A stretch of DNA of 64,000 nt from Warburgia ugandensis (taxonomy: Eukaryota > Streptophyta > Magnoliopsida > Canellales > Canellaceae): contig CP141134.1 of NCBI GenBank assembly GCA_035236585.1, forward strand, positions 21,196,414-21,260,413, in the 5' to 3' direction. This document shows positions 3,182 to 43,304 of the stretch, piece by piece. Both the position numbers and the translations under genes were made by a program. Position 1 is the first letter of the stretch; each line of letters begins with the position of its first letter. The notes under the pieces are model-generated. The model was given only the letters and a program-made list of their open reading frames with translations, made no database searches and was not told the DNA's origin.

Positions 3182-3288
<107 letters not shown>

Positions 3289-5297: not shown

Positions 5298-5840
5298 AAC
5301 TGTGACACCATGGTTTTCAAAATATTTTTTAAAAACTATTTCAAAATTTAGAATATCACTATTTGAAATTCATTTTGAAAAGAAAACAACGGAAGAAAAA
5401 AAATTCATTGAAAGTTTTCCTAAAAATCCTGAGTGTCATTTCTTACAAAAATCACAAGATTTAATGGTGAATGATTGTCCCATTTCTATTGAAATTTCAA
5501 CAAAGTTTCCTCAATTTGGACATATGTGCATTTGACGCATGTGTACAAAAACCTAGTAGACAATACAAATAATTTTCATCACTTTGAAAACAAATATACT
5601 GACTAATCACTTCTAAGAACCTCTAGTAACAACCATATCAAAATATATTCCATTAAATACAATCAAATCTATGACATGAAAGTAAATATACATTTGCATT
5701 GTCCACTGGATTAGAAAGCTAATCTAAGTTTGCATGGCTCACTATCTAGATACTAGAAAATATTCATCTTATGAAATTCCAAAACTCCACAGTTGCTCTC
5801 ACATTTGACATGTTCATCTTTCTATTCTAATTCTTCAAAT

Positions 5841-5871
5841 CTAAGACATTATAAAAATTACAATGTCTTAG
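5841..5871 (-). other. LTR hairpin, 10-bp stem
   Basis: CTAAGACATT and AATGTCTTAG are perfect inverted repeats separated by 11 bases. It occupies the same relative place, about 540 bases from the LTR 3' edge, as hairpins at 17470-17501 and 42825-42864 in two other gypsy LTRs, and has similar outer bases (CTTAC before the stem and AGAT after it on the sense strand). Confidence 0.75.
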
Positions 5872-6967
5872 TAAGATGTCCCTTATGTAGGTAGAATAGG
5901 TAGCTATTTTGCCATGCAGTTCATAAGTTACATAAATCAACATATTTTGAGAATATATCATACTTAAACAAACCTCATATTGTTTTTAAAGTACTCATGC
6001 CAAAACTATAAGTTCTTAAATCATACAACTATGAAATCAATTTATGCGTGCAATTCACTATAGCTAATGAATCATAGTCTATCATGTTTCAATGAATATA
6101 ATTACCTTATCTTTTCATGAGGATTTAAGCATTCTAGGCTTTTATTGTTTCGTGTATTTTTAATTGGTACTAAGATCATTTTCTATTAATAGACACACAA
6201 GTATTCTGCATTTATTCATTACACTCAGTTCTTCGACATCGTTCATAGTACATGATTATTCAAGCTATCCTTACAAATGCCTAAGTTGTTTGTCATTTGA
6301 TAGTTAAATCAATTTTCAAAGAGTGAGGTATCTAACTTCCCCATTATCATGTGAAAAGGTTATTATTTAACATCTTTTTCTTCACGAGCCCAATGTAGTT
6401 TCATATGCAAGAATAAATCAATATATGATCATGCAAAAATCACACGTAATGCTCAAGCAATCGAGCATCATAATAAGCTAACCATGGTAAAACCATTGGT
6501 TAAGGAAAAATCAACATGTAATATTACACTAATAGCAAGCCACAAGCTTGGTGTAAGCATTAAAAGACGATGTTGATAGAAGACGAAGTTAATTGATAAG
6601 GTTAAAGAGTATAATATATGCTCAAAGTTTGGTCATCAACAAGTCAACATTTGATAAATCTTTGACCTAGAAAAACCAAAAGTTGTTCATGGTTTTCAAA
6701 CCATAATCAATCAATTCATAAGTGCAAATAGTTCTTTTAGCATCAAATCAAACTAAAATCATAAATTTGAAACTCAATCCTACACATGAGGTGAAAATCT
6801 ATGAGGAAAGGCTGGTGACTCAAATCATCTATAATGTCCAAAAGAATTTGATAAGTCTATCAAAGCAGTGTACTCAAAACAAATAAGGCCAAATGAAGGC
6901 TCACATCCCTCAATCTGAAATGCACAAATCCATGTCCACATGACTGTAGAAAACTAATTGCTCCAAT

Positions 6968-7200
6968 CACAATGGTAGACAATCCTACCACTAGGGACCA
7001 TCAGTGGCATATCATCTTACCACTAAGGACCATCAGTGGCCTATCATCCTACTTCCAAAGATCATCAATGGCATACCAACCCACCACCAAGGAACAATAG
7101 TGGTATATTGTCATACCACCAAGGACCAATAGTGGCATATCATCCTACTACCAAGGACTATTAGTAGCATATCGTCCTACTACAAAGGACCAATGGTTTG
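6968..7200. repeat. 32-bp minisatellite in the right LTR, about 7 units
   Basis: Counterpart of the array at 923-1150, with the same 32-base step (6976, 7008, 7040 and onward) and the core GTGGCATATCATCCTACCAC in more varied form. Units differ more between the two LTRs than the surrounding sequence appears to. Confidence 0.8.
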
Positions 7201-8475
7201 AACTCTCGAGAATGATCGGCATGTCGAACATGTTAACAACACACAGGCACCTATGCTCATGGGGCCCTATTGTGACCCACTAGTGACTGTCATGGCCTCT
7301 ACATTTGCTTGTGGATACATGCATGAACCATGACTCACTAAACCTCATGGAGTCTACACAGCTACCTCTCATGGCACTTCCCCATGAGAAGGTACTCTTG
7401 CTACCCACTGTCTCCATTGCAGGGCTGATATTAATATCATCTCAGAGGTTAGTGGCCAACTGCACCTCCTAGCATAAGGTCTCTAGGATTTATAGTGGCA
7501 CATAGCACGCCTGCCTCCAGTTCTTACTACACCCAGGAGTGCAAGCCTCCTGGTCTTATGGTACTCGTAGAGCACCTACCAAATGATCTAAGATGTAAGA
7601 CACTCCAAGAGTGACTTCCCAAAACGTCAATGAAATTCATATTCACAAGGACTTACATCCTACTTGTGGAGTGCCTGCATAAGCATCAACAAATCCACAT
7701 CCAGTTCCTACCCAAATCATATATCACACGCACCTCCAAAACTATTTCAAAATTTTATGAGAAACCATTCAAATCTATTCATTTTCAATCCATATTCCCA
7801 ACAAGTTGTCTAAACATATCTTCATGATCATTCAAAACATACAGTCTTTATTCATATTTTAGATAATACTTTATCAGTTCCCAAAAGTATGCATCCAATG
7901 CAATGTTTATAAAAGATATATCTTTAAGCAATATCTTAAAAGTGCTTATCACTAAATGGACCATGGTTAAACTTGTGATAAAACTTTCATCAATAAAGAC
8001 ACATATGTTACAACTTAAGTTCATGCCTTATAAATATCTATTGTGGGTCCATGGTGTTTAGAATATTCTTTCCTAGTTCAAATGTGAATCTTTTCATCAT
8101 TTTTGAGTCATTAAGTTAGAAGTATGACACCTTCTAGCAAATTTGCTTACGTCTTCTAATAATTCAAAACCTTGTAAGCTAATTTGATATCTTTACTTTA
8201 TTGCTGATGTGCTTATTAATATTTCCTACTTTTTGGGGTATTCCAAATATTATAATATTAATATGCAACTCCTGATGTTTCAAGAGCATGTGTAAGATCA
8301 AACCATGTTTAAGATATTGCAATGTCCATTTGATGAAAGCCTAAGTTCAAAATCAAGATAGGTAGTATGGTTAATCATTTGTCTTAATGTAATAAATGGG
8401 ATAAAACTAGCATTTTAAGTTCATTTCACATATGCAGCCAATCTTGGTATATATCATGTTCTAAGAATTATCATT

Positions 8476-8477
<2 letters not shown>

Positions 8478-8540
<63 letters not shown>
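8478..8540. repeat. (GT)n microsatellite, about 63 bp
   Basis: Pure GT run in the right LTR. The matching place in the left LTR (about 2440-2470) has no such run, so this tract expanded after the element inserted. Confidence 0.95.
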
Positions 8541-8541
<1 letters not shown>

Positions 8542-9675
8542 CAAGTTCCAGTCAATGAGTATGGTTTGCATTCTTTTGTATGGGCATTACAACTAGGGTA
8601 ACAGTAATATTTTATATGTAAATTAATCATTGAATTTTCAATTTGATAATTTAAAAGGTGTCGTAGGATAACTTCTAAATTTCTCACATGCTTCCCTAAA
8701 TTTAGTAATTAAGGACAATACTTTGTAAATCATCATTTTCATTTAATCATTATTATAAATACATGGCAACTATTAAACTTTCAACAATAGCAATCTTAAT
8801 CCACCTACCTCATATGCCATTTCCCTTGGTTCTTGTGTGTACCTCTTTTAACTCGATCTATTAATTAACCAATTTGTAGGTTTCGTAGTCGATCCATCAA
8901 TGGACGGCTCTGATTGTATTTCTATCAGTGATTAGTGTATCAGGAAAGTAAAGATATGTTGATCTTTAGCTCAACTGTGAAACACTATAGAATAGAAAAA
9001 GATGTAGTGCATAATCTCAGAGATCTAGCATTGAGTATGAATATGTTTGCTAATATATAGTTAAATGGAGATAAAGGGCTAAATTTGATCATATATTAGA
9101 TCATCTAGTTAAATCTATAACTAGATCAAATTGGGAGCTTGTATTGATTGGAAATCTAAGCAATGAGTGGTTGGGATAGGTTTATATATGCCATTGGAGA
9201 TAGATCAATGGTTGGATCATGGCATGATTTGCAAAATCAGTCATAGGTCTGTCACTCAAAGATTGATCAAACACTAGATCTCTACGGATGGTCAAATAGG
9301 TCACATATATGATGATCTGGTCTAATCATGATTGATGGTCAAATCATCTTTGATTAGTGAACAAATAGATGGGTTTTGTTCCTCACGGTGCAAGGATCAT
9401 GACAACTGTTTCAAATCTATGAAATCCTTCCTAAATTGAGCAGAATAAGGGGTCAAAGCTTAAGGGGGTAGTAGGGCTCACCATGTCAACTTAGCCCACC
9501 AAGGAGAGTTGGGAGCTAGTAACACAAGTGAGTCATGCTGCCCTAACTTGTTAGAGGAAAAAGTAAATAAGGGGGAAATTAGGGGGTGAAGATGCAGGGT
9601 TAGTGCACCTATCGTGCTACACCAGTCAGAAGGGAGAAGGGGGAGCAGGACTAGCATGACCTGCTGGTAAGGTTG

Positions 9676-9678
<3 letters not shown>

Positions 9679-9711
<33 letters not shown>
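9679..9711. repeat. (GA)n microsatellite, about 33 bp
   Basis: Counterpart of the longer GA run at 3185-3287 in the left LTR. Confidence 0.95.
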
Positions 9712-9714
<3 letters not shown>

Positions 9715-10666
9715 GTGCAGCTGGCTCGCTCAGGTGGCTGAATCATGTTGCCCCAGTGGAGGGGGATCAGGAGAGAGAACGAGAGGGGGAAAAACCATAC
9801 TAGCACAGCCGGTTGGGCTATGCAAGTTAGAGGAGAAACAGGGAGAAAGGAGAGAAGGGGTTTTCAAGTGGTCAGTGCATGCTAGATTGTACTCACTAGT
9901 GAGACAAGCTAGCTGCATTGGTGGGAAGTCTGAGCATGGAGTTCAGATCGAAGGGAAAAGGGGGAAGGGCTATGCCATTGTCAACAACTTGAGCTCTGGT
10001 AGCTTTGGTGACTACCTCAGGCATGCCAGTGGCAACTCAAGTGACCAGTTCAAGTAATGCTCAAGACAAGGGATAAATGATAGAGAGGGAGTAGGAAAGA
10101 CAAGGAGAGAATTTTTGGTGCTAGGTGTGCTGGCTTGGGGAGAGCAAGGCAGAGAGGGAGAGGGAAGTGAGTTCTAGGCTAGGTAGCTGGGCAATGCTAA
10201 TCGGTGTCTGAGCAAATAAGGGGGTAGACACTTGGGTTTTCCCCTTTCTCTAGCGTTCCTGCCATTTTGTCCCATTCTCATTGGCTGCTGGCCCATCATA
10301 GGAAGAGAAGGCCAATGCATGGCACACGAGCCCCATGAATGTCATGTTTGTGTCCCGTGTGGCATGTGCTCCTGCAGCCTACAAACAAACAAAATTAGGG
10401 GCTTTCGTTATCAATTTGGACCCCCATAAATTAGTAAAATTGTGGGTTTTTTCACCCTAATCTACTTTTTGAAAAAAAAAAAATTAGTGTCATTGGAATG
10501 GTCTAGACATGTAGTTTCCATTTTTTATAGTTTCAAATCCAAATTTTGAGTTTTCAAGGGATCGCTTCCTTGAAATTTAATTTTCAAACAATTCCATTCC
10601 TATTTTTATTCCAATTAAAATATGTTATAATTACTTAGAAATTAACTCAAATTTGAGGTTGTCATA

Positions 10667-16228: not shown

Positions 16229-17469
16229 CGAGCGCGCTCATGTATGTGTGCACGCGCCCTTGTGTTTGTGTGTGTTGTTTTTAGAAACTGTATAATGCAT
16301 GGACCTTGGATTAAGATGGGTGGTTGCGATTTTCCTTTCCTTAAGGTTAGGGATTGAATTTTCAATGTGGGAAAGGTGGCTAGGGTTTTGATCTTTCCAT
16401 TACTTCATTCCTAGCCCTTAGATCAGGCTTTACCTTACTTGGATGGGATCTATGACGTGTAAATCTTCCTTAAGCTTCACTTTCTCTCTACTGTTGGATT
16501 GAAGTACCTTAGCATGAATGGCCTTGATTCCCTAGAGATATCTTCATGTATTACACATGGGACCAAGTGTACATGGATAAGATAGCCAATCATTGGTTAG
16601 CCTTCTTCTTTTGGTTGAGTAGGAGAGAGAAAATATGTAAAAAAGTCTTCATGTGGGTCTCGATCTTCTTTTTATTTTTGAGAAGCTTTCATTTTATATT
16701 CTCCCATTACATATGAATTGAACTTCTCTCAAAAGCTTCCTAAGGTAGTGAAATGTATGTAAGCATTCATGCATGGAGAATTGGCCACCTTTTCATTTGA
16801 GTAGGAGTTGTACTTGGGGTTTTTAACAACTCTGACTTTAATAGTGACACTAGGTATGACGACCTGGGTTTTCAAATGTAATTTTAAATACAAACTAATT
16901 TCTAATGCAGGATCGATCCAATTTGAAATAATTTTTGTAAAAATAATGTAATGCAGTAGAAAATCTTTTCTTTTAAATTCACTTTGAAAAACCCTGAGTG
17001 TCATTTTTATTTTCTCAAAAACAAGGATTCTCAGTGAAATGAGAGCTCATTTCTACTAAAAATTTAGTAGTGTTTCCTCTGTTTTTTGGACATATGACAT
17101 TTAACGCATGTCATTGCGAAGTACTTGATAAACATTTGTTGCCAATTTTAAAATACAAATGGAGACTCTGTCTCCTTTTCATACATCTAACAAAACAAAA
17201 ATAATTCACATCAACACAACACACCCAGAACCTCCACAGCACAACTTAGTCACATAATTCTTCCAAATTCCCATAATTACATACAATGCAGTCTCTTTCT
17301 CATTTCTAACAAGATAACTTCAATTCAAAGACCAATTCTTACCTGTCTTCTTCCAAAGTATCCTTTGGCGCACTCCTATCAGTATGCTGCTCCTTTTTCT
17401 TTTTCTTTTTTGGAAGCCCCTTGTTCTGAGACACTATCAAAATGCCAAATCTGCTACTATTCTCTGTAT

Positions 17470-17501
17470 CTGAGGCATTGCAAACCATAGCAATGCCTCA
17501 G
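17470..17501 (-). other. LTR hairpin, perfect 12-bp stem, 8-nt loop
   Basis: CTGAGGCATTGC pairs perfectly with GCAATGCCTCAG. On the sense strand it is preceded by CTTG and followed by ATACA, as at 42825-42864 in the solo LTR, although the stems differ in sequence. It lies about 615 bases from the LTR 3' edge. Confidence 0.8.
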
Positions 17502-17910
17502 CAAGCAATCACTTGTGTAGGTGGAACAAGACACCAGTTTTATATAAACAAAATTATGATAATTCTATCTAAATCAATTTGTCCATGCTGAATCATGCAA
17601 ACACAATTCAATTAGCATTTAACTTGAATCATTCAACATTCATCAATATCATGACTCCATGCTAAAATGGAAGAAACACCATTGCATCAGCACAAAACAC
17701 ATTCTTTGAAATGCAAAGTATGCAATCACATGTCAAACTTATAAGTCATTTACATGTTCCTGATACCAGTCTTCGCTCTTACGAGCCATTTCGCATATCA
17801 AATACCAATGCGGCATTGTGTGTTTCAAGTAGACAGCAAACAATATTATCCTCTTTGGCGCAGTGGGTTAAACCCAAAGACACACCTCAAGGCTTTGCTC
17901 CTGAGAGACC

Positions 17911-18113
17911 GGTAGCTTGTTTAGCCAGGAACCGATAACTTGTCCAGCCCTAAGGCCTGCCCACATCATAACGACTCTGTGGCTCGCCCACATCATAAGG
18001 ACCCCTCAAAACACTTCAAAATCCCCAAACAATGGGGCTCAAGGATCTGTAGCTTGTCCAGCCATGAATCGGTAGCTTGTCCAGCCTGAAGGCCCACCCA
18101 CATCATAACGACC
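17911..18113. repeat. Short irregular repeat cluster inside LTR
   Basis: GGTAGCTTGTCCAGCC-like words occur four times and CCCACATCATAA three times in about 200 bases, bounded on each side by CGCTCTTATGAGCCATTTC-like words (about 17772 and 18118). It is more GC-rich than its surroundings. Like the 32-bp minisatellite of the giant LTR it lies inside a gypsy LTR, so tandem structure in this zone may be typical of these elements. Confidence 0.65.
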
Positions 18114-19537
18114 CCTCTCGCTCTTATGAGCCATTTCACAATTTCCTGGTATCAGTCTTACATTTCTCTCACATGATTCATAATAATGTATAGTTTATGC
18201 ATAAACAGTTTATTCATGATTCACTTTCAGCGTGCACATTCATCTTATCTTTCGTATAAATAGAAAAGATTCATTTCAATGCTTGAAATTCATATACACA
18301 TGCATATATAGCAAAATCATAAAAATCTTAATTCCACCTACCTCAAATGGAGATCTTTTCAGTTCACTAACGCGAATACTTCATTCAGTTGCAGTACACA
18401 CTCCCTATCAATTACCTTTGTAACAATACAAACAAATGTTCAGTTATACAATTTTAGGACTTATCCTAACTTCCTTAATACTATTTGGCACAAGGCAAAG
18501 TGATAATGTTCATTACTGTGCAAAAGGTGTTTCATTAGCTATTAGTTGATAGCTAATTTAATGGCAAACAGTTATTGGATTTCCAATCCATGCCATTGGC
18601 CCTAGATTGGCTATTCATTACTCTTCTTAAGTGACTGCAAGTCACTATCACTGTTTAGTGGTCTTAGCCCTTGATTCCTATCCAGATCAACCCTTGGGTT
18701 AGAGCTGGTGTTATTTTTCATGCTACAGTCTTCAATATAACATATAATTATATTCCTAAATCTGACTGCTATAATGAGAATCATGAACAGTTCATGTCAC
18801 CCAATTTTTTATATAAGTTTATCCAAATTCCATACTTTATATCATATTTAAGCTAATTCAACATTCAAGAATCCATATGTAACCACTAATCATTGATCTA
18901 ACATCACAAGGTGTCTATTTAAATAGTGGCAAATCGGACGGCCGATATCATCCAATTTGTTTCACTTCAAATTCATATAATTCTAGTCATCCTATCATTT
19001 TTGAGGACAAGGAACTCATTTGTGGTGTCTTATCGTCGATCAGACATCACAAAGTTACTGTGTGAATAGTACTTGATCGGATGGCTAAGATTGTCCAATC
19101 TGTTTTTAGCCTAAATTTGAAGTTTTTTGTATGATCCGAGCTACATCATGCCCTAAATTACCTATGCTTGAGTTTTGATTTAAAAATAGACAGTTGGATT
19201 ATCCACAAAACCTAAATCTAGCATAAACAGTATAAATTTTGCAAAATACCTCAAATCACAAGTTTGGATTTGTGGATCTTACCTTCTCGACGCGTTTTCA
19301 TGTGTTTTCCACTGTTGGATGGGCTAGATTGGCTTAGATCCGTCTTCACTTTCACTTGTAGGGTTTTCGAGTTTGTCGACCACTGTCTCCCCTCATTCGA
19401 TGCTCTAGATCTTGTCGGATTCCCCAATAACCTTGGGGGTTTTGTTCGGCTTTTGATCCAAGTCGACATCATCTCCGATGATAACCTGGAACTTCGGTGA
19501 CCTACAAAACCCCGTTTTCTCTTCCACGCCTGCACAC

Positions 19538-19540
<3 letters not shown>

Positions 19541-19581
<41 letters not shown>
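19541..19581. repeat. (TC)n microsatellite in LTR
   Basis: CT run within a broader pyrimidine-rich stretch (19500-19770), about 570-600 bases from the LTR 5' end. The lysine/glutamate-rich open frame on the minus strand here is a composition artefact. Confidence 0.93.
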
Positions 19582-19584
<3 letters not shown>

Positions 19585-20148
19585 TTCTTCTTACCCCTCT
19601 CTCCTTCTCCTCTCCGACTGTTTCCCCCTCGATTCGTTCTCTCTTGCCGGTGTGACCTAGGGTTTCCCCCTTCTTCTCTCCCTCTTTCTCCCTCACACTC
19701 TCTCTCTCTCCCCTCCTCGGCGTTGTCTTCCTCTTCTTTCTTCTTCTTCTTTTTTTTTTTTTTTTTTCTTATTCGTTTCATGCAGTGAGGTCAACCTCGA
19801 GAACAAACTCAATGTCTATTTGTCATCCCACTTAGGTTGAAGGGGGTGCCGTTATCAAATTCGGCCCCTCCCTTTAATCACTTTAATGCTTTTTTTTTTT
19901 TTTTTTTCTAAAATGCCCTTCATATTCAAACCTTCATATCTCCTTCATTCAAACTCCGATTTGAGAAAAATTAGTGTCGTTGGAACCGTCTTGCGAGTAC
20001 AATCCAAACATGATGGTATCAGGGTCTAATTTGATGTATTTTAAAAGATAAATTCAATGAAACCTAAATATGCAGATTCTCCCATTTATATTCATCAAAA
20101 TAAATTTATAATCCTTTAAAATAGGATTTAAAAATTAGGATCGTTACA

Positions 20149-20160
20149 TTCTTTCCCCCT
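20149..20160 (-). other. Polypurine tract
   Basis: The minus strand reads AGGGGGAAAGAA directly before the LTR start TGTAACGATCC. This is a textbook plus-strand priming site and fixes both the LTR edge and the orientation. Confidence 0.85.
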
Positions 20161-21980
20161 TACAGGAATTTCATCCTCAAAATTCTTTTCATGTTATCTT
20201 TCAACAATTCTACAGACATCTTCATCTTATCACATTTTTCAATTCCACAATGCCGCCTGACAGGATTAATCCAAAAAGGAAGGTTCTATCGAAAAGCATC
20301 TCTGTTCTTTTATTCCATTCTGAATCTTACAACTCTTTACGTCATATAATCCTCAAAAATCACCCAATTCCAACTCCAACTCTAAACATATATGTCGCTT
20401 ATTACCATAGCCTTCCTACCATCCTTGGGCAATAAAGAGCTACTCTCATTGTGTATTCCGGTATTCGACCATTAGGAACATAAGGCAATAATAGAATGAA
20501 GATACAGTCAGTTGACATCTCAAAATAGCAAATCCACACCCAATATCATAGAGCATATCGCTCACAAAACAAGCATACTTATGCCAAATCAGCTCTGAGC
20601 ATATCAACTCATGAAGAAGACATTTCTATGCCAATCATCTTGCTTCATGTCAAAATCATCATGATAAGTTATCTATCATTCATTGATTAAAGGTGATGTC
20701 AAAAGGAGTGCAAAGGTGAAATCTCTTCTTTAGCTCCCAAAGGCTCACCTTGTAAGCATCACTCTTCATATGCCTTCTCATAAACGAAATCATGTGTAAT
20801 CTCATCCATATAAACCTTGAAGTAATTTCACAATAATAGCTACATTGATCCATCCTTCCGTAAGTGTATTGGTTCCACCAATTGGCACCATCCAGAACTC
20901 ATAACAATCATAATGAGTTCAAGAAAAAACATCTTAAAGATGTCATACTCAAAATCCTAGGCTGGTCAAAACCACACCTCAAATTAATCTCCACAAACAC
21001 CATGCACAATCCTTAGTTGATCAAATAGATTGTTAATATACGATTAAGAATATCAGTTCTCTACCGCGGTAGTATCAAACAAATGACAATTTGTGCATAG
21101 TAACAAAGATCTCTCTTCTCATGAAGAAAACTAATACACTTTACGAAGATCCTCTAGGCTTGTTAAAATCCTTATTAAAAGCTTATGTAACTGGAGCTTT
21201 GCCAGCCCCGTCGGGCCATCCCATGTAGTATTCTAAGTAAATAATACAATACCTAATGCCAAATCCACTTCAAAATCATTCTCTTGCTACAATATCATGA
21301 AAACACCTAAGGAAAGACTGCAAACTCTTACACATCATCTTTGTCCTCAGTCTGTGGCAACTAACGATCCTCCATTGTCACACAAACAAGAAATAAAACT
21401 TAGCACCCTCTGAAACATACAGCATTACTTTCAAGGTGGGATCAGCCAATCCATTCCAACGATGACATCATAATCCCCCCCATCAAATAGGATGAGATCA
21501 TCGTTCATCATCTCTCTCTTATTAGGTTCATAGGTGCCTCTTAAAAGTACTCATTAGCCCCTAGTAACTTTCCTACTGAACTCATAATACCCAATCAAAA
21601 GGAGAACACATCCAAGCATGTCTAAGCAACATGGGTCATGGATTCAAGGAAGATCATAACATGCCTACCAACAATCTGGAAAATACCCTCCACCATCTGG
21701 TTTGAAACTCGTGCTCACCATGATGTAATAACAGAAACTCATCATTACTAAGGTGGGGCCATCTCTTTCCTGATCCTAATGTCAAACTGTCTAACTTGTT
21801 GTCCTCTGGAATAGTCTTTAAAGAAATGCACTGACTCACTATAGTCAAGCTTCCAACATATTTCTGCTATAATGGCAGATATTAATACTAGTGCCTCTGT
21901 TGTGGCATCTACTAAATCTAAGATATAACTGTTCAGGTACTTGCCCCTGCAAGAAACACACCTCTTTAGCCTATAAACCC
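20149..21980 (-). mobile_element. Degraded interior of the gypsy element with protease remnant
   Basis: After the polypurine tract comes the usual gypsy tail, then about 1.8 kb of decayed sequence. At 21443-21469 the minus strand encodes DVIVGMDWL, the well-known motif of gypsy aspartic proteases. Reverse transcriptase, RNase H and integrase are not recognisable, and the protease lies far closer to the 3' LTR than in a complete element, so most of pol is gone. The element is broken in many places. Its right side passes without a clear break into the first unit of the satellite array. Confidence 0.65.
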
Positions 21981-24900
21981 ATTTTAGATACTGTTGAGCT
22001 GCCTGATACCTCTACTTTAAAGTAGACAACACTCTCTCTACATCACCCATTACACCTCAGGCAAATATGGTGATCATTACCAGTCTCCTCAAGAGCCTTC
22101 TAGATAAAGGACTCAGCAATAGAGGAACACGTCCTCTCAAATGACGATCATTAAACTCCTCATAATTACAATTTTTGTGTCTTCACTTCCACCATTTCCT
22201 TTCATGTAACTAATGAATTATTTCATGGTCATATTAGTCAAATCAATTGCAACTCTGTCAATCTCATATCCAACGAAATTGATCTTTTATAATAGCCTTC
22301 ACTATTAATAACCACAATCTCATCAATATCAACGTTGGATGTAAATCAATTATAGATACTATTGAGTTGCCGGATACCTCTACTTTAAAGTAGCTAACAC
22401 TCTCTCTACATCACCTGTTACTCCTTAGCAAATATATTGATCATTACTGGTCTTCTCAAGAGCCTTCTAGATAAAGGACTCAGCAACAGAGGAAGACGTC
22501 CTCTCAAATGACCATCACTAGACTCCTCATAATTACAATTTTTGTGTCTTCACTTCCACCATTTCCTTTCATGTAACTAATGAATTATTTCATGGTCATA
22601 TTAGTCAAATCAATTGCAACTCTGTCAATCTCATATCCAATGAAACTGATCCTTTATAATAGCCTTCATTATCAGTAACCACAATCTCATCAATATCAGT
22701 GTTGAATGCAAATAAAATATAGATACTATTGAGCTGCATGATACCCCTACTTTAAAGTAGCCAACACTCTCTCTACATCACCCGTTACTCCTCAGGCAAA
22801 TATATTGATCATTACCGGTCTTCTCAAGAGCCTTCTAGATAAAGGACTCAGCAATAGAGGAACACGTCCTCTCAAATGACCATCACTAGACTCCTCATAA
22901 TTATAATTTCTGTGTCTTCACTTCCACCATTTCCTTTCATGTAACTAATGAATTATTTCATGGTCATATAAGTCAAATCAATTGCAACTCAGTCATTCTC
23001 ATATCCAATGAAACAAATCTTTTATAATAGCCTTCATTATTAATAAACACAATCCCATCAATATCAGTGTTGAATTTAAATATATTATATCTACTATTGA
23101 GCTACCTGATACCTCTACTTTAAAGTAGCCAACACTCTCTCTACATCACCTGTTACACCTCAGGCGAATATATTAATCATTACTGGTCTTCTTAAGAGCC
23201 TTCTAGATAAATGACTCAGCAATAGAGGAAGACGTCCTCTCAAGTGACCATCATTAGACTCCTCATAATTTCAATTTTTGTGTCTTCACTTCCACCATTT
23301 CCTTTCATGTAACTAATGAATTATTTCATGGTCATATTAGTCAAATCAATTGCAACTCTGTCAATCTCATATCCAATGAAACAAATCTTTTATAATAGCC
23401 TTCATTATTAATAAACACAATCCCATCAATATCAGTGATGAATTTAAATCAATTATATATACCATTGAGCTACCTGATACCTCTACTTTAAAGTAGCCAA
23501 CACTCTCTCTACATCACCCGTTACACCTCAGGCGAATATATTAATCATTACCGGTCTTCTTAAGAGCCTTCTAGATAAATGACTCAGCAACAGAGGAACA
23601 CGTCCTCTCAAGTGACCATCATTAGACTCCTCATAATTTCAATTTTTGTGTCTTCACTTCCACCATTTCCTTTCATGTAACTAATGAATTATTTCATGGT
23701 CATATTAGTCCAATCAATTGCAACTCTGTCAATCTCATATCCAATGAAACAAATCTTTTATAATAGCCTTCATTATTAATAAACACAATCCCATCAATAT
23801 CAGTGTCGAATGTAAATTAATTATAGATACTATTGAGTTACCTGATACCTCTACTTTGAAGTAGCCAACACTCTCTCTACGTCACCCGTTACTCCTCAGG
23901 CAAATATATTGATCATTACTGGTCTTCTTAAGAGCCTTCTAGATAAAGGACTCAGCAATAGAGGAACACGTCCTCCCAAATGACCATCACTAGACTCCTC
24001 ATCATTGCAATTTTTGTGTCTTCACTTCCACCATTTCCTTTCATGTAACTAATGAATTATTTCATGGTCATATTAGTCAAATCAATTGCAACTCTGTCAA
24101 TCTTATATCCAATGAAACAAATCTTTTATAATAGCCTTCATTATTAGTAACCACAATCTCATCAATATCAGTGTTGAATGTAAATCAATTATAAATACTA
24201 TTGAGCTGCTTTAAATTAGCCAACACTCTCTCTACATCACCCGTTACTCCTCAGGCAAATATATTGATCATTACCGGTCTTCGCAAGAGCCTTCTAGATA
24301 AAGGACTCAGCAATAGAGGAACGCGTCCTCTTAAATGACCATCACTAGACTCCCCATAATTTAAATTTTTGTGTCTTCACTTCCACCATTTCCTTTCATG
24401 TAACTAATGAATTATTTCATGGTCATATTAGTCAAATCAATTGCAACTCTGTCAATCTCATATCCAACGAAACAAATCTTTTATAATAGCCTTCATTATT
24501 AGCAACCACAATCTCATCAATATCAGTGTTGAATGTAATTTAATTATAGGTACTATTGAGTTGCCTGATACCTCTACTTTGGAGTAGCCAACACTCTCTC
24601 TACATCACCCATTACTCCTCAGGCAAATATACTGATCATTATCGATCTTCGCAAGAGCCTTCTAGATAAAGGACTCAGCAATAGAGGAACACGTCCTCTC
24701 AAATGACCATCACTAGACTCCTCATAATTTAAATTTTTGTGTCTTCACTTCCGCCATTTCCTTTCATGTAACTAATGAATTATTTCATGGCCATATTAGT
24801 CAAATCAATTGCAACTCTGTCAATCTCATATCCAATGAAATTAATCTTTTACAATAGCTGCCATTATTAAAAACCACAATCTCATCAATATTAGTGTTGA

Positions 24901-27900
24901 ATGTAAATTAATTATAGAAACTCTGTCAATCTCATATCCATTGAAACTGATCTTTTATAATAGCCTTCATTATTAATAACCACAATCCCATCAATATCAG
25001 TGTTGAATTTAAATCAATTATAGATACTATTGAGCTACCTGATACCTCTACTTTAAAGTAGCCAACACTCTCTCTACATCACCCGTTACACCTCAGGCGA
25101 ATATATTAATCATTACCGATCTTCTCAAGAGCCTTCTAGATAAAGGACTCAGCAATAGAGGAACACGTCCTCTCAAATGGCCATCATTAGACTCCTCATA
25201 ATTTCAATTTTTGTGTCTTCACTTCCACCATTTCCTTTCATGTAACTAATGAATTATTTCATGGTCATATTAGTCAAATCAATTGCAACTCTGTCAATCT
25301 CATATCCAACGAAACAAATCTTTTATAATAGCCTTCATTATTAGCAACCACAATCTCATCAATATCAGTGTTGAATGTAATTTAATTATAGGTACTATTG
25401 AGTTGCCTGATACCTTTACTTTGGAGTAGCCAACACTCTCTCTACATCACCCATTACTCCTCAGGCAAATATACTGATCATTATCGATCTTCGCAAGAGC
25501 CTTCTAGATAAAGGACTCAGCAATAGAGGAACACGTCCTCTCAAATGACCATCACTAGACTCCTCATAATTTAAATTTTTGTGTCTTCACTTCCGCCATT
25601 TCCTTTCATGTAACTAATGAATTATTTCATGGCCATATTAGTCAAATCAATTGCAACTCTGTCAATCTCATATCCAATGAAATTAATCTTTTACAATAGC
25701 TGCCATTATTAAAAACCACAATCTCATCAATATCTGTGTTGAATGTAAATTAATTATAGAAACTATTCAGTTCCCTGATCCCTCTACTTTGAAGTAGCCA
25801 ACACTCTCTCTACATCACCCGTTACTCCCCAGGAAAATATATTGATCATTAGCGGTCTTCTCAAGAGCCTTTTAGATAAAGGACTCAGCAATGAAGGAAC
25901 ACGTCCTCTCAGATGACCATCACTAGACTCCTCATAATTACAATTTTTGTGTCTTCACTTCCACCATTTCCTTTCATGTAACTAATGAATTATTTCATGG
26001 TCATATTAGTCAAATCAATTGCAACTCTGTCATTCTCTTATGCAATGAAACAAATCTTTTATAATAGCCTTCATTATTAATAACCACAATCCCATCAATA
26101 TTAGTGTTGAATTTAAATCAATTATAAATACTATTGAGCTGCTTTAAATTAGCCAACACTCTCTCTACATCACCCGTTACTCCTCAGGCAAATATATTGA
26201 TCATTACCGGTCTTCGCAAGAGCCTTTTAGATAAAGGACTCAACAATAGAGGAACACGTCCTCTTAAATGACCATCACTAGACTCCCCATAATTTAAATT
26301 TTTGTGTCTTCACTTCCAACATTTCCTTTCATGTGACTACTGAATTATTTCATGGTCATATTAGTCAAATCAATTGCAACTCAGTCAATCTCATATCCAA
26401 TAAAACTGATCGTTTATAATAGCCTTCATTATTACTAACCGCAATCTCATCAATATCAGTGTTGAATGTAAATCAATTATAAATACTATTGGGCTGCCTA
26501 ATACCTCTGCTTTAAATTTGCCAACACTCTCTCTACATCACCCGTTACTCCTCAGGAAAATATATTGAACATTACCGGTCTTCTCAAGAACCTTCTAGAT
26601 AAAGGACTCAGCAATGGAGGAACACGTCCTCTCAAATGGCCATCATTAGACTCCTCATAATTTAAATTTTTGTGTCTTCACTTCCACCATTTCCTTTCAT
26701 GTAAATAATGAATTATTTCATGGTCATATTAGTCAAATCAATTGCAACTCTGTCAATCTCATATCCAATGAAATTAATCTTTTACAATAGCTGCCATTAT
26801 TAAAAACCACAATCTCATCAATATCAGTGTTGAATGTAAATTAATTATAGAAACTATTGAGTTGCCTGATCCCTCTACTTTGAGGTAGCCAACAATCTCT
26901 CTACATCACCCGTTACTCCCCAGGAAAATATATTGATCATTAGCGGTCTTCTCAAGAGCCTTTTAGATAAAGGACTCAGCAATAAAGGAACACGTCCTCT
27001 CAGATGACCATCACTAGACTCCTCATAATTACAATTTTTGTGTCTTCACTTCCACCATTTCCATTCATGTAACTAATGAATTATTTCATGGTCATATTAG
27101 TCAAATCATATGCAACTCTGTCATTCTCATATGCAATGAAACAAATCTTTTATAATAGCCTTCATTATTAATAACCACAATCCCATCAATATCAGTGTTG
27201 AATTTAAATCAATTATATATACCATTGAGCTACCTGATACCTCTACTTTAAAGTAGCCAACACTCTCTCCACATCACCCGTTACACCTCAGGCGAATATA
27301 TTAATCATTACCGGTCTTCTTAAGAGCCTTCTAGATAAATGACTCAGCAATAGAGGAACACGTCCTCTCAAGTGACCATCATTAGACTCCTCATAATTTC
27401 AATTTTTGTGTCTTCACTTCCACCATTTCCTTTCATGTAACTAATGAATTATTTCATGGTCATATTAGTCAAATCAATTGCAACTCTGTCAATCTCATAT
27501 CCAATCAAACAAATCTTTTATAATAGCCTTCATTATTAATAAACACAATCCCATCAATATCAGTGTCGAATGTAAATTAATTATAGATACTATTGAGTTA
27601 CCTAATACCTCTACTTTGAAGTAGCCAACACTCTCTCTACGTCACCCGTTACTCCTCAGGCAAATATATTGATCATTACCGGTCTTCTTAAGAGCCTTCT
27701 AGATAAAGGACTCAGCAATAGAGGAACACGTCCTCTCAAATGACCATCACTAGACTCCTCATAATTACAATTTTTGTGTCTTCACTTCCACCATTTCCTT
27801 TCATGTAACTAATGAATTATTTAATGGTCATATTAGTCAAATCAATTGCAACTCTGTCAATCTCATATCCAATGAAACAAATCTTTTATAATAGCCTTCA

Positions 27901-30900
27901 TTATTAATAAACACAATCCCATCAATATCAGTGTCGATTGTAAATTAATTATAGATACTATTGAGTTACCTGATACCTCTACTTTGAAGTAGCCAACACT
28001 CTCTCTACGTCACCCGTTACTCCTCAGGCAAATATATTGATCATTACCGGTCTTCTTAAGAGCCTTCTAGATAAAGGACTCAGCAATAGAGGAACACGTC
28101 CTCTCAAATGACCATCACTAGACTCCTCATAATTTCAATTTTTGTGTCTTCACTTCCACCATTTCCTTTCATGTAACTAATGAATTATTTCATGGTCATA
28201 TTAGTCAAATCAATTGCAATTCTGTCAATCTCATATCCAATGAAATTAATCTTTTACAAGAGCCGCCATTATTAAAAACAACAATCTCGTCGATATCAAT
28301 GTTGAATGTAAATTAATTATAGATAATATTGAGTTATCTGATACCTCTACTTTGAAGTAGCCAACACTCTCTCTGCTTCACCTGTTACTCCTCAAGCAAA
28401 TATATTGATCATTACCGGTCTTCTCAAGAGCCTTCTAGATAAAGGACTCAGCAATAGAGGAACACGTCCCCTCAAATGACCATCACTAGACTCCTCATAA
28501 TTACAATTTTTGTGTCTTCACTTCCACCATTTCCTTTCATGTAACTAATGAATTATTTCATGGTCATATTAGTCAAATCAATTGCAACTCTGTCAATCTC
28601 ATATCCAATGAAACAAATCTTTTATAATAGCCTTCATTATTAGTAACCACAATCTCATCAATATCAGTGTTGAATGTAAATCAATTATAAATACTATTGA
28701 GCTGCTTTAAATTAGCCAACACTCTCTCTACATCACCCGTTACTCCTCAGGCAAATATATTGATCATTACCGGTCTTCGCAAGAGCCTTCTAGATAAAGG
28801 ACTCAGCAATAGAGGAACAAGTCCTCTTAAATGACCATCACTAGACTCCCCATTATTTAAATTTTTGTGTCTTCACTTCCACCATTTCCTTTCATGTAAC
28901 TAATGTATTATTTCATGGTCATATTAGTCAAATCAATTGCAACTCTGTCAATCTCATATCCAACGAAACAAATCTTTTGTAATAGCCTTCATTATTAGCA
29001 ACCACAATCTCATCAATATCAGTGTTGAATGTAATTTAATTATAGATACTATTGAGTTGCCTGATACCTCTACTTTGGAGTAGCCAACACTCTCTCTACA
29101 TCACCCATTACTCCTCAGGCAAATATATTGATCATTACCGGTCTTCGCAAGAGCCTTCTAGATAAAGGACTCAGCAATAGAGGAACACATCCTCTCAAAT
29201 GGCCATCACTAGACTCCTCATAATTACAATTTTAGTGTCTTCACTTCCACCATTTCCTTTCATGTAACTAATGAATTATTTCATGGTCATATTAGTCAAA
29301 TCAATTGCAACTCTCCCATTCTCATATGCAATGAAACAAATAATAGCCTTCATTATTAATAACCACAATCCCATCAATATCAGTGTTGAATTTAAATCAA
29401 TTATAAATACAATTGAGCTACCTGATACCTCTACTTTAAAGTAGCGCACACTCTCTCTACATCACCCGTTACACGTCAGGCGAATATATTAATCATTACC
29501 AGTCTTCTCAAGAGCCTTTTAGATAAATAACTCAGCAATAGAGGAGCACGTCCTCTCGAATGACCATCATTAGACTCCTCATAATTTCAATTTTTGTGTC
29601 TTCACTTCCACCATTTCCTTTCATGTAACTAATGAATTATTTCATGGTCATATTAGTCAAATCAATTGCAACTCTGTCAATCTCATATCCAATGAAACAA
29701 ATCTTTTATAATAGCCTTCATTATTAGTAACCACAATATCATCAATATCAGTGTTGAATGTAAATCAATTATAAATACAATTGAGCTGCTTTAAATTAGC
29801 CAACACTCTCTCTGCCTCACCTGTTACTCCTCAGCAAATATATTGATCATTACTGGTCTTCTCAAGAGCCTTCTAGATAAAGGACTCAGCAACAGAGGAA
29901 CACGTCCTCTCTAATGACCATCACTAGACTCCTCATAATTACAATTTTTGTGTCTTCACTTCCACCATTTCCTTTCATGTAACTAATGAATTATTTCATC
30001 GTCATATTAGTCAAATCAATTGGAACTCTGTCAATCTCATATCCATTGAAACTGATCTTTTATAATAGCCTTCATTATTAATAACCACAATCCCATCAAT
30101 ATCAGTGTTGAATTTAAATCAATTATAGATACTATTGAGCTACCTGATACCTCTACTTTAAAGTAGCCAACACTCTCTCTACATCACCCGTTACACCTCA
30201 GGCGAATATATTAATCATTACCGATCTTCTCAAGAGCCTTCTAGATAAAGGACTCAGCAATAGAGGAACACGTCCTCTCAAATGGCCATCATTAGACTCC
30301 TCATAATTTCAATTTTTGTGTCTTCACTTCCACCATTTCCTTTCATGTAACTAATGAATTATTTCATGGTCATATTAGTCAAATCAATTGCAACTCTGTC
30401 AATCTCATATCCAATGAAATTAATCTTTTACAAGAGCCGCCATTATTAAAAACAACAATCTCATCAATATCAATGTTGAATGTAAATTAATTATAGATAA
30501 TATTGAGTTATCTGATACCTCTACTTTGAAGTAGCCAACACTCTCTCTGCTTCACCTGTTACTCCTCAAGCAAATATATTGATCATTACCGGTCTTCTCA
30601 AGAGCCTTCTAGATAAAGGACTCAGCAATAGAGGAACGCGTCCTCTTAAATGACCATCACTAGACTCCCCATAATTTAAAATTTTGTGTCTTCACTTCCA
30701 CCATTTCCTTTCATGTAACTAATGAATTATTTCATGGTCATATTAGTCAAATCAATTGCAACTCTGTCAATCTCATATCCAACGAAACAAATCTTTTATA
30801 ATAGCCTTCATTATTAGCAACCACAATCTCATCAATATCAGTGTTGAATGTAATTTAATTATAGGTACTATTGAGTTGCCTGATACCTCTACTTTGGAGT

Positions 30901-32285
30901 AGCCAACACTCTCTCTACATCACCCATTACTCCTCGTGCAAATATACTGATCATTATCGATCTTCGCAAGAGCCTTCTAGATAAAGGACTCAGCAATAGA
31001 GGAACACGTCCTCTCAAATGACCATCACTAGACTCCTCATAATTTAAATTTTTGTGTCTTCACTTCCGCCATTTCCTTTCATGTAACTAATGAATTATTT
31101 CATGGCCATATTAGTCAAATCAATTGCAACTCTGTCAATCTCATATCCAATGAAATTAATCTTTTACAATAGCTGCCATTATTAAAAACCACAATCTCAT
31201 CAATATTAGTGTTGAATGTAAATTAATTATAGAAACTCTGTCAATCTCATATCCATTGAAACTGATCTTTTATAATAGCCTTCATTATTAATAACCACAA
31301 TCCCATCAATATCAGTGTTGAATTTAAATCAATTATAGATACTATTGAGCTACCTGATACCTCTACTTTAAAGTAGCCAACACTCTCTCTACATCACCCG
31401 TTACACCTCAGGCGAATATATTAATCATTACCGATCTTCTCAAGAGCCTTCTAGATAAAGGACTCAGCAATAGAGGAACACGTCCTCTCAAATGGCCATC
31501 ATTAGACTCCTCATAATTTCAATTTTTGTGTCTTCACTTCCACCATTTCCTTTCATGTAACTAATGAATTATTTCATGGTCATATTAGTCAAATCAATTG
31601 CAACTCTGTCAATCTCATATCCAATGAAATTAATCTTTTACAAGAGCCGCCATTATTAAAAACAACAATCTCATCAATATCAATGTTGAATGTAAATTAA
31701 TTATAGATAATATTGAGTTATCTGATACCTCTACTTTGAAGTAGCCAACACTCTCTCTGCTTCACCTGTTACTCCTCAAGCAAATATATTGATCATTACC
31801 GGTCTTCTCAAGAGCCTTCTAGATAAAGGACTCAGCAATAGAGGAACACGTCCTCTCAAATGACCATCACTAGACTCCTCATAATTACAATTTTTGTGTC
31901 TTCACTTCCACCATTTCCTTTCATGTAACTAATGAATTATTTCATCGTCATATTAGTCAAATCAATTGGAACTCTGTCAATCTCATATCCATTGAAACTG
32001 ATCTTTTATAATAGCCTTCATTATTAATAACCACAATCCCATCAATATCAGTGTTGAATTTAAATCAATTATAGATACTATTGAGCTACCTGATACCTCT
32101 ACTTTAAAGTAGCCAACACTCTCTCTACATCACCCGTTACACCTCAGGCGAATATATTAATCATTACCGATCTTCTCAAGAGCCTTCTAGATAAAGGACT
32201 CAGCAATAGAGGAACACGTCCTCTCAAATGGCCATCATTAGACTCCTCATAATTTCAATTTTTGTGTCTTCACTTCCACCAATTC
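21981..32285. repeat. Satellite array, 368-bp unit, 28 units
   Basis: The anchor ACTCTCTCTA (with small variants) was located 28 times from 22031 to 32118. Most steps are exactly 367-368 bases; four are 355 (a variant lacking 13 bases), one is 361, and two are 474 (an extra 106-base part-unit). Units are AT-rich, keep a well-conserved core (GAGCCTTCTAGATAAAGGAC, then GAGGAACACGTCCTC) and a variable part. There is no open frame running through units. The left edge merges with decayed gypsy interior, and the right edge stops inside a gypsy LTR. Longer blocks are duplicated within the array. Confidence 0.95.
22012..22025. other. 14-bp perfect dyad within the satellite unit (example)
   Basis: CTACTTTAAAGTAG is its own reverse complement and recurs in many units, for example near 22384, 22748, 23115 and 25050. 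Another class has CTACTTTGAAGTAG, and the 355-bp class lacks half of the dyad. Confidence 0.8.
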
Positions 32286-32354
32286 CATGAAGAATGTATA
32301 CTTTCAAATCGAATGCATTATAATCAACTAATCAATATGGTTCAATTATTTAAA

Positions 32355-32468: not shown

Positions 32469-35225
32469 TGTTGTTGTTTTAAATAAAACTTGCAAGTGCA
32501 CGAATCGTTTGCAATATAGTACACTAGTGAGGTAGATCTCACGAGGAGTTGAACTAATGTGATGCTAATGGTTCCTACTTTAAACTATCTAACCTAGCCA
32601 AGATAATGCGATTTTAACCTAAACTAATGGTGGAAATAAAAAAATTGCATGAAATTAGAAACTTTCTAAATTTAGAACTTTAAACACAGAAACTTTCTCA
32701 ACTAACCTAACTTGGAAATTAAACCTAAACAATGATCTAATTAAGAAATTAAAACACGTAATACTTATGAAAACAATTAAATAAGTGGTATGCATGGAAT
32801 TAAGCTAGAAAGAATGCATGAGCTAGAATGCAATTTAGGCTAACATGGAATGCCTAAAACCTAAAGGATGGAATTAAGATGTAAACTAGTAATTAATGGA
32901 ATGTAAACTAAGATCAAACTATAATTAAACAAGAAAACTATTTGAGAACAATAGCTAATCAAACACTTAAAAGAAAGCTACCAAAGTATCATGCACATGA
33001 TCCACGAAATGGTGTGCATGATTCATGAAGTAAACATAGTTTGATATCTAAATATCATGCAATCTAATCTAAGCATTAACTCAACATTCTAAATAACTAA
33101 ATCCTTGGAGAATCAAGCAAACTAGCAATAAGAAATGCTAACATCAAGCACGAATCAGTCATGATTACTATGTTGTTGAAAATTCCAATAATATGCTATT
33201 TTTAATATCCAAGTAGTTTGCACATGAAATTAAAGAACTTGAAATACCATAAAACATTCAAAACTAAATTAATTAGCTACTAGAAATAAGCAGCAATGAT
33301 AAGCCTCAAAGAACTTTATTGAATGAATGTCAAATTACATAAAAAAGAGAATGCATGAACATGTATACAATTGTTGGACTTTGCATGCTTTTTCAAGACA
33401 TGGAACTTGATTCCAATTACATATGAAACACCTCTTAAAAAAATTAAATCAAGTTCAAATAACATGTAATTATAACCAAAATAAACCCAAGAGAAGAAAA
33501 GCTAGGAAGATGGAACTATTTTAAGACAAAAACAGCCTTAAACTAAAGTTAGAACTAAGCAAAAACCACATAAAAGAGGGAGGGAAATCAAAAGATTTAA
33601 GCTACTGTTTCTCTTGGTTGTCACTACGAAAGAAATAATAACTTATATCTTAAGAGAATGGACCAAAAAAATAAGAGTATTGCAAGCTAGATTCAAGGGA
33701 AGCAAAGGCATAAAAACAAGTGCATGAAGGTAGGGAAGACAAGAACAAGAAAGCAAGGTAATAACACGAGTAAAAAAGCAAGGAATCAAAGATGAGATCT
33801 AACTTGAACTTTTAAGAAGCAAACAAGGGAATAATATCTAATGGAAGAGGCATGGAAGCATGGGGGAAATTGCTTCCATGGAGAGAAACACATTGAAGAA
33901 CAAGAGGAGGGAAGAAGGGTGGAGAATGTCTCCTTCTTAGAAGGGGCTGATCTCCCCTTCTCCAAGAGTCCTTTCACTTTTATTTCTCTCCTCTTTTTAT
34001 TTGTTTTGGGAACTTCCTAACCTAGCTCATATGTGATCCATATGTGATCCTAAGGTGGAGAGAAAAGATAGGAAATATAAGGGTTAGATGATGCATAGAC
34101 CTAGGGCTTTAAAAAGGAAACAAGGGCTGATTTTTTGTTGTCTTAAGGTGGGGAGACACCTCTTTTTTAGGGAGCGATGTCTCCCCCCTTTAAAAATCAT
34201 GAAACCCCTTGAAATTAGGAAGGTAGATGAGGTGATAAGGTAGGAAAAAGATGAGAAGAATAAAAGAAGGTGGGAAGAAAGTGGGGTGTAGGAAAGACTT
34301 AGGAAAGTGAGGTGAGATGAAGGTTTTTGATTGGTTGAGGGATTTCTTAAGGCCTTGGGATTGGTTAGGTAGCTAGGATGGAAGTTTAGGAAGGTGGAAG
34401 AGTTATGGAATGGTAGGACTCTTGAATGGAAATTCAAATTCATGGTGATCTTTGGTGGTGAGATGGAAAGTGATAAATTAGTGGGAGAAAGAGGAAAAAA
34501 CATAAAAATTGAAAGATTCTCATCCAATTGGTCCATATGCAAACTTATCCTAATAAGATTTTTCTTAATTGTCTTCAAAATATCCCTTAAATTCTCATGG
34601 ATAATCCTCTTGAATTTCATCCAATCCTACCCTTTCATTTAGCTTATCTTGATGGCTTAGATGGCTCACTTTGAAGGCTCCATTGGCTAGGCTTCTTGGC
34701 TCCATCCCTTGGCTTGAGTGGCCTGTATGGTTTGGCCTGAATTTCTTAGCTCTCCACCTTCTCTCATGGCTTATGTGGCTAAGGTAGCTTAAGTGGCTTC
34801 CATGCAAAGTTGGTGGAAGTACATGGCTTACTTTATAGGCCTACTTTGGCCATCTTTAGATCCTTTAATTGCATCCATTACTAGTCCACAAGATGATCTT
34901 AACCTCTGTTTTTATGTTAGATTGATGATTTTGAGGTTTTGACTTGATCTTTTAATCTTGATCTTCAATTTTCATCTCAATTAATCTCACACCATCTTAC
35001 CTCCTACAAAAAGTGAAAAATTGTAATTAAATCCTAGAAAAATATTATTAATAACATACTTACCTTGGAGTAGCCTTTAGACCAACAAAATAACAAACTT
35101 TTGCTTCATTAGGTAAAAACTGCACGTGTTACGAATTTTGGCCTAAAAATCCTAAATTACCCCTATAAGTTGTAACACATGGGTAACTAATTGGGTGATT
35201 TTTATACAAAATTAAATACTTATCA
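32469..35225 (-). mobile_element. Solo LTR, Tat/Athila-type, 2.76 kb, with target-site duplication
   Basis: The sequence runs TGTTGTTG...ACTTATCA and is flanked on both sides by CTTTT (32464-32468 and 35226-35230), a 5-bp target duplication. Flanking bases rejoin to a continuous older LTR. It shares its start and its CAAGTGCACG box with the LTR at 10952-13501. With no interior and an intact duplication it is a solo LTR made by LTR-LTR recombination. Open frames of 63-178 codons in it have no recognisable content. Confidence 0.85.
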
Positions 35226-41500: not shown

Positions 41501-43304
41501 GATGGAATAAGCTATCCTCAACCAATAAAACATTAACTGGTTGAGTAATAATGATAAGAGCATAAAAGGTTAGTAAATCATCTAATTCTAATAAAAACTA
41601 TAAATAAAATAAGGAAGATCAAACAAGATCCAAGAGAGATCTTAAAGGTGCGCAAACGAAAAGAAAAGAAATATAATGTAGATTGTAGCATTTTTCTATC
41701 ATTTTACTTATAGTGCAGATTGTGAACTTAGAAGATTTGAAACCTTGATCATATATGATTCAAAGAAAATTAGGGCATCCCTTACAGGAATGCATACTTG
41801 TATAGAGGAATAACTTAATATGTATGGTTTGACAAGTGTATGAATCAAGATCATGATGAACAATAGGGAGTGAATATCACTCAAGATGTATGAATCAAGA
41901 CCTTAATAGTACTTTGAGGTAGGTGGATGTACAAGAATATATTAAGGATTCATGTGTATACATACATGATCTTTTGTCTAGAATTATAGACCTTCATGAT
42001 ATCAGTATGCTTAGTATATTAGCATAGTCATGATCCAATTAAATAAACCAACCCTATGATCCAATTCAACTATCTAATAACCTAATGAAATGAGGTGAAA
42101 GTAATGAGATGTGTAGACTAAGGAAACCCTAAGAATAGAGCAGAGAAAATATTCCAACCTTAGTTAAACAGACACATCGTCTGATATATACAATGTATTT
42201 TATATGCAAGCATGACGGCTTGTAATTTTGTTTTACAGAGTACTAGGATTGAGGATGCTATGTTAGGGAAGTTATGAGGGTTTGGCCACCTGCTTCCTGA
42301 AACTTATATGATGGATACCATGCCCAAAGAGAGGCTAAATGTCGAGGCGGGGTGATAATAGAAAGGCCGCCACTGTGACAGCCATAGTCTACCTCATGAG
42401 GACATGGATTTGTTATTTTCACAGTTGATAGGAGTGGAGGATTATACAATTATCCAGGTGCGCGGTATGAATTGAGACTATGGCATAGTAGTCCTAATGT
42501 ATTTTGCATTATGATGCACATATGATAGATATAGTGTAATGCCCTGACATAATGAGATGCCACTACATGAGTTCCTGGAAAGAAAATCCTTGTACAAGAA
42601 TTAGTTGAATATTGATCTTCTAAGTGAAAGTATAGCCAGGGGAAGGAACAAGTTTTGAGCAATTTTTACTATTTTAACTGATTTATCCTGTACTACATAA
42701 ATAACGTATATACTCTATGTAAGATAACTCACAAATAGACAACCATGATGGAATGATGACTAAGATAGGTATTCTTATATTAGTGAAGTAGTATATTTTT
42801 GTATCCCCTACCAAGCATACCTTGCTGAGATATTGTAAATATTTGAATATTTATAATATCTCAGATACATGGAAGGAGACTTAAGGAAGTAAAGCTTGAA
42901 TACTTAGAAGCTCAATAAGGTAGAAGACTTGAAAGAATAATCAAACAGGGTATTTTCCTTGAAGATATGTATTTTTATTTGAGACCATTGTATTGTATTA
43001 AGAGCTTTTAACGTAAGGTGAGGTTTGAACTTTGGATTATGTAATTTGGATAATGGTTTGTAATTATAATACAGGGGTTGTGTAAGAGTGAACTACTAGA
43101 TGATTCTTGGTATTCAATAAAATTTTATTTTATACGAAATGTCTATGTGTATTATGTATCTTGAGGTGAGACTTGGGTTTTGCTACAAACGAATTTAAAA
43201 GAAAAGAATTTTCGCTGCATTGTTTGCGAAAACATTTTACCATTAAGGGCCCTGCCTTTGAAAAATGTTTTACAAAATATGTTACAAAAACCCAGGTCGT
43301 CACA
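38597..43304 (+). mobile_element. Solo LTR of a gypsy (Del/Tekay-like) element, 4.71 kb, with target-site duplication
   Basis: Starts TGTAACACCCC and ends CCCAGGTCGTCACA, both typical of plant Del/Tekay LTRs. The 5-bp sequence GGAGC occurs immediately before (38592-38596) and after (43305-43309). No primer site, polypurine tract or pol sequence lies inside, so this is one long LTR rather than a short whole element. It reads on the plus strand, opposite to the other gypsy LTRs in the window. It holds a CT run at 39247-39266 and a hairpin at 42825-42864. Short open frames inside are unconvincing. Confidence 0.88.
42825..42864 (+). other. LTR hairpin, 10-bp stem with inner extension
   Basis: CTGAGATATT pairs with AATATCTCAG. 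Inside, TAAATAT and ATATTTA also pair, giving a long near-perfect hairpin. Flanks are CTTG before and ATACA after, as at 17470-17501. It lies about 440 bases before the LTR 3' edge. Confidence 0.8.

Follow-up and report, generated by a model that had tools for sequence, protein, structure and literature searches.

Results

Organization of the tandem array

We analyzed a 64,000-nucleotide stretch of the Warburgia ugandensis genome, hereafter the window (C9:21196414-21260413 in a 1.12-Gb assembly of 14 contigs). It contains a tandem array on the minus strand, occupying window positions 21987-32286 and consisting, when cut at the duplication joint, of 28 head-to-tail units of ≈368 bp each. Unit 1 (21987..22354) is still attached to the left flank of the retroelement described below, and units 2 to 28 (22355..32286) follow head to tail, the last being shortened to 213 bp. 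The preliminary description of the locus reported a very regular repeat of ≈368 bp over 10.3 kb, and we confirm this. An anchor sequence recurs 28 times with three or fewer mismatches (26 times exactly), and 19 of the 27 steps between anchors measure 368 bp, the others being 355 (three), 474 (two), 367, 361, and 354 bp (one each). The 355-, 361-, and 474-bp steps had been given as variants; all three are present, and 354 and 367 complete the list. Tandem Repeats Finder independently calls the array, its longest call spanning 21974-31237 (score 7651) and other calls covering the remainder. Self-match of the array at an offset of 368 is 73%, as opposed to at most 29.5% in 20 dinucleotide-block shuffles and 27.5 to 28.7% in seven stretches of 10.3 kb taken from elsewhere in the window, so we rejected chance periodicity.

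The 28 units share a mean pairwise identity of 92.6%, in agreement with the moderate divergence first reported, and their alignment contains 74 informative and 69 singleton variable columns. The 474-bp step combines a 368-bp unit with a partial duplication of 106 bp and is found in units u08 and u25, and the 355-bp step reflects one common 13-bp deletion in u07, u12, and u19. This deletion also occurs in u22, alongside a 1-bp deletion common to u22 and u02. We rejected a coding repeat: over the 28 units and 54 dispersed copies of the unit (described below), the longest stop-free run averages 46 amino acids on the plus strand and 43 on the minus strand, and a Pfam scan of four pieces of the unit, one taken from the array and the other three from dispersed copies, returned no match. 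Strand skew was likewise discarded as an array-specific property; it is −0.355 in the array and on average −0.361 in the 54 dispersed units, and because these have a like skew, that of the array is inherited.

Copying within the array

Several stretches of the array are nearly identical to stretches elsewhere in it. A 1055-bp block at 24255..25309 recurs at 30570-31624 with 4 mismatches (offset 6315), each copy carrying one 474-bp variant, and a 614-bp block at 30024..30637 recurs at 31234-31847 with none (offset 1210). Further blocks of 528 bp (1 mismatch) and 481 bp (2 mismatches) lie at offsets of 842 and 1946, respectively. The edges of these blocks are out of step with the unit edges, and variants move with the copied blocks, as seen in the 474-bp form present in both 1055-bp copies and in the 13-bp deletion present in four units. 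Some segments of the array, namely the 614-bp and 1055-bp blocks, were thus copied rather recently. Adjacent units do not resemble each other more closely than expected under a random order (92.43 versus 92.55% identity; 63.5% of 10,000 permutations equal or exceed the observed value). The continuing homogenization proposed earlier is thus supported in part: rather recent block copies are present, but steady homogenization from neighbor to neighbor is not seen, and these data argue for occasional block copying over steady homogenization of neighboring units.

Genome-wide distribution of the unit

We searched the whole assembly with a 35-base pattern spanning the unit-to-unit joint, allowing up to three mismatches. 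All 22 matches fell inside the array (21 of its 27 joints and the left edge), and a reversed control pattern gave none. A second 35-base pattern, from a conserved part of the unit and with the same tolerance, gave at least 93 matches, of which 27 lie in the array and at least 66 outside it, spread over 13 of the 14 contigs; counts from pattern searches are lower bounds. The dispersed matches are not clustered, the closest two being ≈4.3 kb apart. Neither pattern revealed a second array in the 1.12-Gb assembly, with the proviso that the joint pattern missed 6 of the 27 joints of the array itself, so that a diverged array elsewhere could escape it, and that arrays of the unit family with another joint are detectable only via the unit pattern, at 3 mismatches in 35. 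A separate DNA search returned 80 matches from the best 39 of 1171 candidates. The array itself was not among them, and because the search is thus blind to arrays, we set it aside for this question.

We fetched 58 entries containing the unit, representing 57 distinct places and some but not all of the at least 66 dispersed matches. Every one of the 58 contains a single unit, in one piece in 52 and in two colinear pieces in 6; three span less than 300 bp of it. None contains a tandem or short array. In one entry, L003, a (CT)n microsatellite (1336-1403) lies inside the unit near position 46, and in L039, L049, L057, L064, and L071 the unit is likewise split near this position.

The segment is single in each fetched relative, where it lies in the same element context, and the tandem joint is found only at the array. 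Similar units standing head to tail, one hallmark of a satellite, are present at the locus; long arrays at several loci or a very high copy number were not found with these patterns, which located one array. The preliminary description had suggested a lineage-specific satellite, perhaps centromeric or subtelomeric, and had named a single local array as the outcome that would speak for a private duplication instead. Within the reach of the patterns used, a single local array is what we find, along with single units elsewhere. With no second array found by either pattern and a unit that is an internal retrotransposon segment, the satellite proposal is unsupported.

The host element and its dispersed relatives

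To the left of the array, on the same strand, lie an internal region that is noncoding or decayed (20149..21986) and, beyond it, a 3′ long terminal repeat (LTR) of ≈3.3 kb at about 16855..20148. Window positions 16857-20149 align with both long repeats of a relative, C5a (e.g., from C5a position 7725). The inner edge of the window LTR reads GTTACA and its outer edge is degenerate (TATGACGACC).

Among the 3-kb and 10-kb loci that we fetched, most are colinear with the window from ≈20848 to 22351-22363, a stretch that runs from the left flank through unit 1. The whole of 20149..21986 is colinear only with the closest copies, L013 and L014, and the flank match is shorter or interrupted in L003, L004, L005, L007, and L018. 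In eight loci inspected by eye, the sequence preceding the unit is the flank of unit 1 in six, the exceptions being L003, which has a (CT)n stretch there, and L007, which has a different sequence; the sequence following the unit is absent from the array in all eight.

Seven relatives were extended further, and in six of these the segment is flanked by two long direct repeats, with pieces 77.6 to 93.7% alike; no such pair was found in the seventh. C5a shows the full LTR length of ≈3.3 kb and C14a nearly all of it, and in the clearest relatives the edges read TG..ACGACC and GTTACA. Paired LTRs are thus present in the relatives, and the window element retains one only, the left (3′) one.

The motif TGGTATCAGAGC, which we take to be a primer site fitting initiator tRNA-Met, occurs exactly in 7 of 34 loci, each time on one and the same strand with respect to the window. 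Five loci (L005, L006, L013, L020, and L021) have it 3 to 5 bp before the right LTR, and because of this position the right repeat is the 5′ LTR. In L003 the motif is 1.4 kb away from the unit, and no LTR match accompanies it. In L018 (3670-3681 in window orientation) it lies 3′ of the unit, the reverse of the arrangement in the other copies, and judged by this L018 is a rearranged or nested copy. A primer site next to the 5′ LTR is present among the relatives; in the window element it is absent along with the 5′ end.

A 35-amino acid stop-free piece encoded on the minus strand at 21434..21538 matches the Ty3/gypsy-type aspartic protease family RVP_2 (PF08284; E = 6.8e-5, 23.1 bits, cutoff 20.3), and the corresponding piece of C5a matches the same family above its cutoff (E = 7.2e-7). 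A third piece (E = 3e-16) belongs to the far end of stretch C5b, outside the host element. None of eight other pieces had a Pfam match above cutoff (an unrelated family scored best, with E = 0.063), and among the pieces scanned the protease remnant is the sole gag/pol domain match. In C5a, the protease remnant and the 3′ LTR are ≈1.3 kb apart, too small a space for reverse transcriptase and integrase. Because the family has a protease remnant and no space for these two enzymes, we consider it non-autonomous and Ty3/gypsy-derived. The unit sits on the 5′ side of the protease, at the putative gag position. Each dispersed copy has a single unit, situated inside this non-autonomous LTR-retrotransposon family, whose LTRs reach ≈3.3 kb.

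The right breakpoint and the surroundings of the array

The array ends at 32286..32287, a breakpoint beyond which the element was not found to continue within the window. Neither its 1.4-kb 5′ internal part nor its 5′ LTR was found from 32286 to the end of the window, the only LTR-like match to the right of the array being a 57-bp piece at 43167-43222. We considered whether a nested insertion had shifted the 5′ end rightward; within the window, the 1.4-kb internal part is absent to the right of the array. The first ≈170 bp after the array are covered by no other place among the best 40 of 4320 candidates. A different dispersed repeat starts at ≈32469 (window 32469-33200; likewise from the best 40 of 4320 candidates scored).

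Elsewhere in the window, direct repeats at ≈10-2449 and 6051-8477 are 80% alike, with further matching pieces extending to 3908 and 10480, and together (10-10480) they probably form a second, related LTR element. Both copies contain a 32-bp minisatellite (925-1142 and 6982-7192), and positions 5259-5542 resemble the edge of the right LTR of the host family with its primer-site region. A diverged tandem repeat with a period of ≈53 bp occupies 60563-61066. Exons resembling a gene for a MEI2-like RNA-binding protein lie at 51139-57179, ≈19 kb from the array. They include an RRM_2 match at 56527-56781 (E = 3.9e-17) and, upstream of it, two RRM_1 matches, of which one exceeds the cutoff (E = 3e-5) and the other falls slightly short of it (E = 8.8e-4); two other pieces of this gene gave no Pfam match.

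Common descent of the units and the duplication joint

We placed the 28 units together with 54 dispersed copies in a FastTree phylogeny, with the root set on a distant copy. Dropped from the 58 entries were L041, L049, and L073, which have less than 300 bp of the unit, and L022, a sequence identical to L002 and from one and the same place; L009-L012 and L023-L034 formed no part of the comparison. The 28 units form one clade with no outsider, which rests on a support of 0.955 and on few diagnostic columns, three in the alignment setting almost every unit apart from almost every dispersed copy. The units are on average 92.6% identical to one another and the dispersed copies 89.0%, with a mean of 88.4% between the two groups. 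On this phylogenetic evidence, the 28 units descend from one shared ancestor.

At the joint, the left flank (..TTTTA/GATAC) and the right edge of the segment (..ATTATA/ATCAA) are combined into ..ATTATA/GATAC. The sequence common to both sides amounts to 2 bp (TA) at most.

Discussion

Origin of the array

We consider it very probable that the array arose by tandem amplification, private to this locus, of a 368-bp segment from inside a single decayed, non-autonomous Ty3/gypsy-derived LTR retrotransposon. How the copies in the array were made we infer rather than observe. Amplification would have begun with a tandem duplication by illegitimate joining at no more than 2 bp (TA) of shared sequence, and the array may then have grown in place via unequal exchange or break-induced copying between sister chromatids, partly through duplication of blocks that span at most about three units. 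The regular spacing is explained by the length of the first duplication, which set it. Loss or rearrangement would have taken away the 5′ end of the element.

A different order of events, in which a genomic satellite family (centromeric, subtelomeric, or dispersed) existed beforehand and retrotransposons captured single units of it, would account for the satellite-like length and regularity of the unit. Yet neither pattern located a further array, the dispersed units lie in the same element context, and the array units form one clade apart from the 54 dispersed copies, so that we regard this order as extremely improbable. An assembly artefact, entire or partial, is also very improbable. Near-identical blocks such as the exact 614-bp pair are of a type that assemblers can duplicate, but most units differ by several per cent and are distinguished by the 74 informative and 69 singleton columns.

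Two further explanations concern how the amplification took place. The array could have formed during reverse transcription, by template switching or slippage, and been inserted as part of the element. It is embedded in the sequence of the element and keeps the register of the left flank, and PMC7004042 reports that an origin of this kind was hypothesized for the tandem 3′UTR repeats of Ogre elements. Against it, no other insertion with the joint was found and none of the 58 fetched entries has a short array; moreover, the 5′ end is lost at the locus, so the whole inserted unit is not visible there. We hold this origin to be unlikely, while leaving it some weight. If a circle had been excised, amplified by a rolling-circle mechanism, and returned to the same element through homology, many units would have arisen at once, along with blocks longer than the unit. 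The 7.4% mean divergence between units and the lack of closer likeness between neighbors speak against a recent single burst, however, and reinsertion at the source is required; we therefore think this route decidedly unlikely. Private amplification in place, from one duplication, is the reading we adopt.

Significance

No host function of the array is indicated. One may speculate, with rather little confidence, that the locus is a satellite at birth, that is, a single-copy segment without earlier subrepeats that was amplified in place, ≈19 kb from the MEI2-like gene, is still length-variable between individuals, and perhaps influences local chromatin. The locus offers a single-locus example of a tandem array started from a transposon segment that is unrepeated in the fetched relatives; its source element, its exact joint, and its dispersed single copies can all be compared. 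It also cautions that regular spacing within a window is no proof of a satellite family. For the Warburgia ugandensis genome, its use would be mainly as a candidate length-variable marker.

Comparison with known systems

Large retrotransposon derivatives (LARDs) have long LTRs and a short internal region without space for reverse transcriptase and integrase. The host family is like them in its long LTRs and short internal region and differs in that it still keeps a protease remnant.

According to PMC7004042, nine Lathyrus satellites originate from Ogre elements, in which they are represented by short tandem arrays downstream of gag-pol. The array is like this system of Ogre (Tat) elements in Lathyrus sativus in being rooted in a Ty3/gypsy-type LTR element whose sequence was expanded to form a longer array. 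The Ogre repeats, as set out there, stand downstream of gag-pol, before the 3′ LTR, whereas the segment here is 5′ of the protease remnant; and in those accounts short arrays occur in many element copies, whereas here the segment is single in all 58 fetched entries (57 places) and amplified at one locus.

More generally, according to the review PMC12628747, satellites can form by tandemization of LTR, gag, or pol segments, with Macas 2009 and Sharma 2013 cited on satellites from LTR-element segments. The array is like the satellites treated there in that a subsegment of an LTR element turned into a tandem unit, and differs from them in that its spread was detected at one locus only. It looks like a small private case of a known process, the rise of satellites from retrotransposon segments: it is not of the Ogre type, but in its working it resembles documented retrotransposon-derived satellites.
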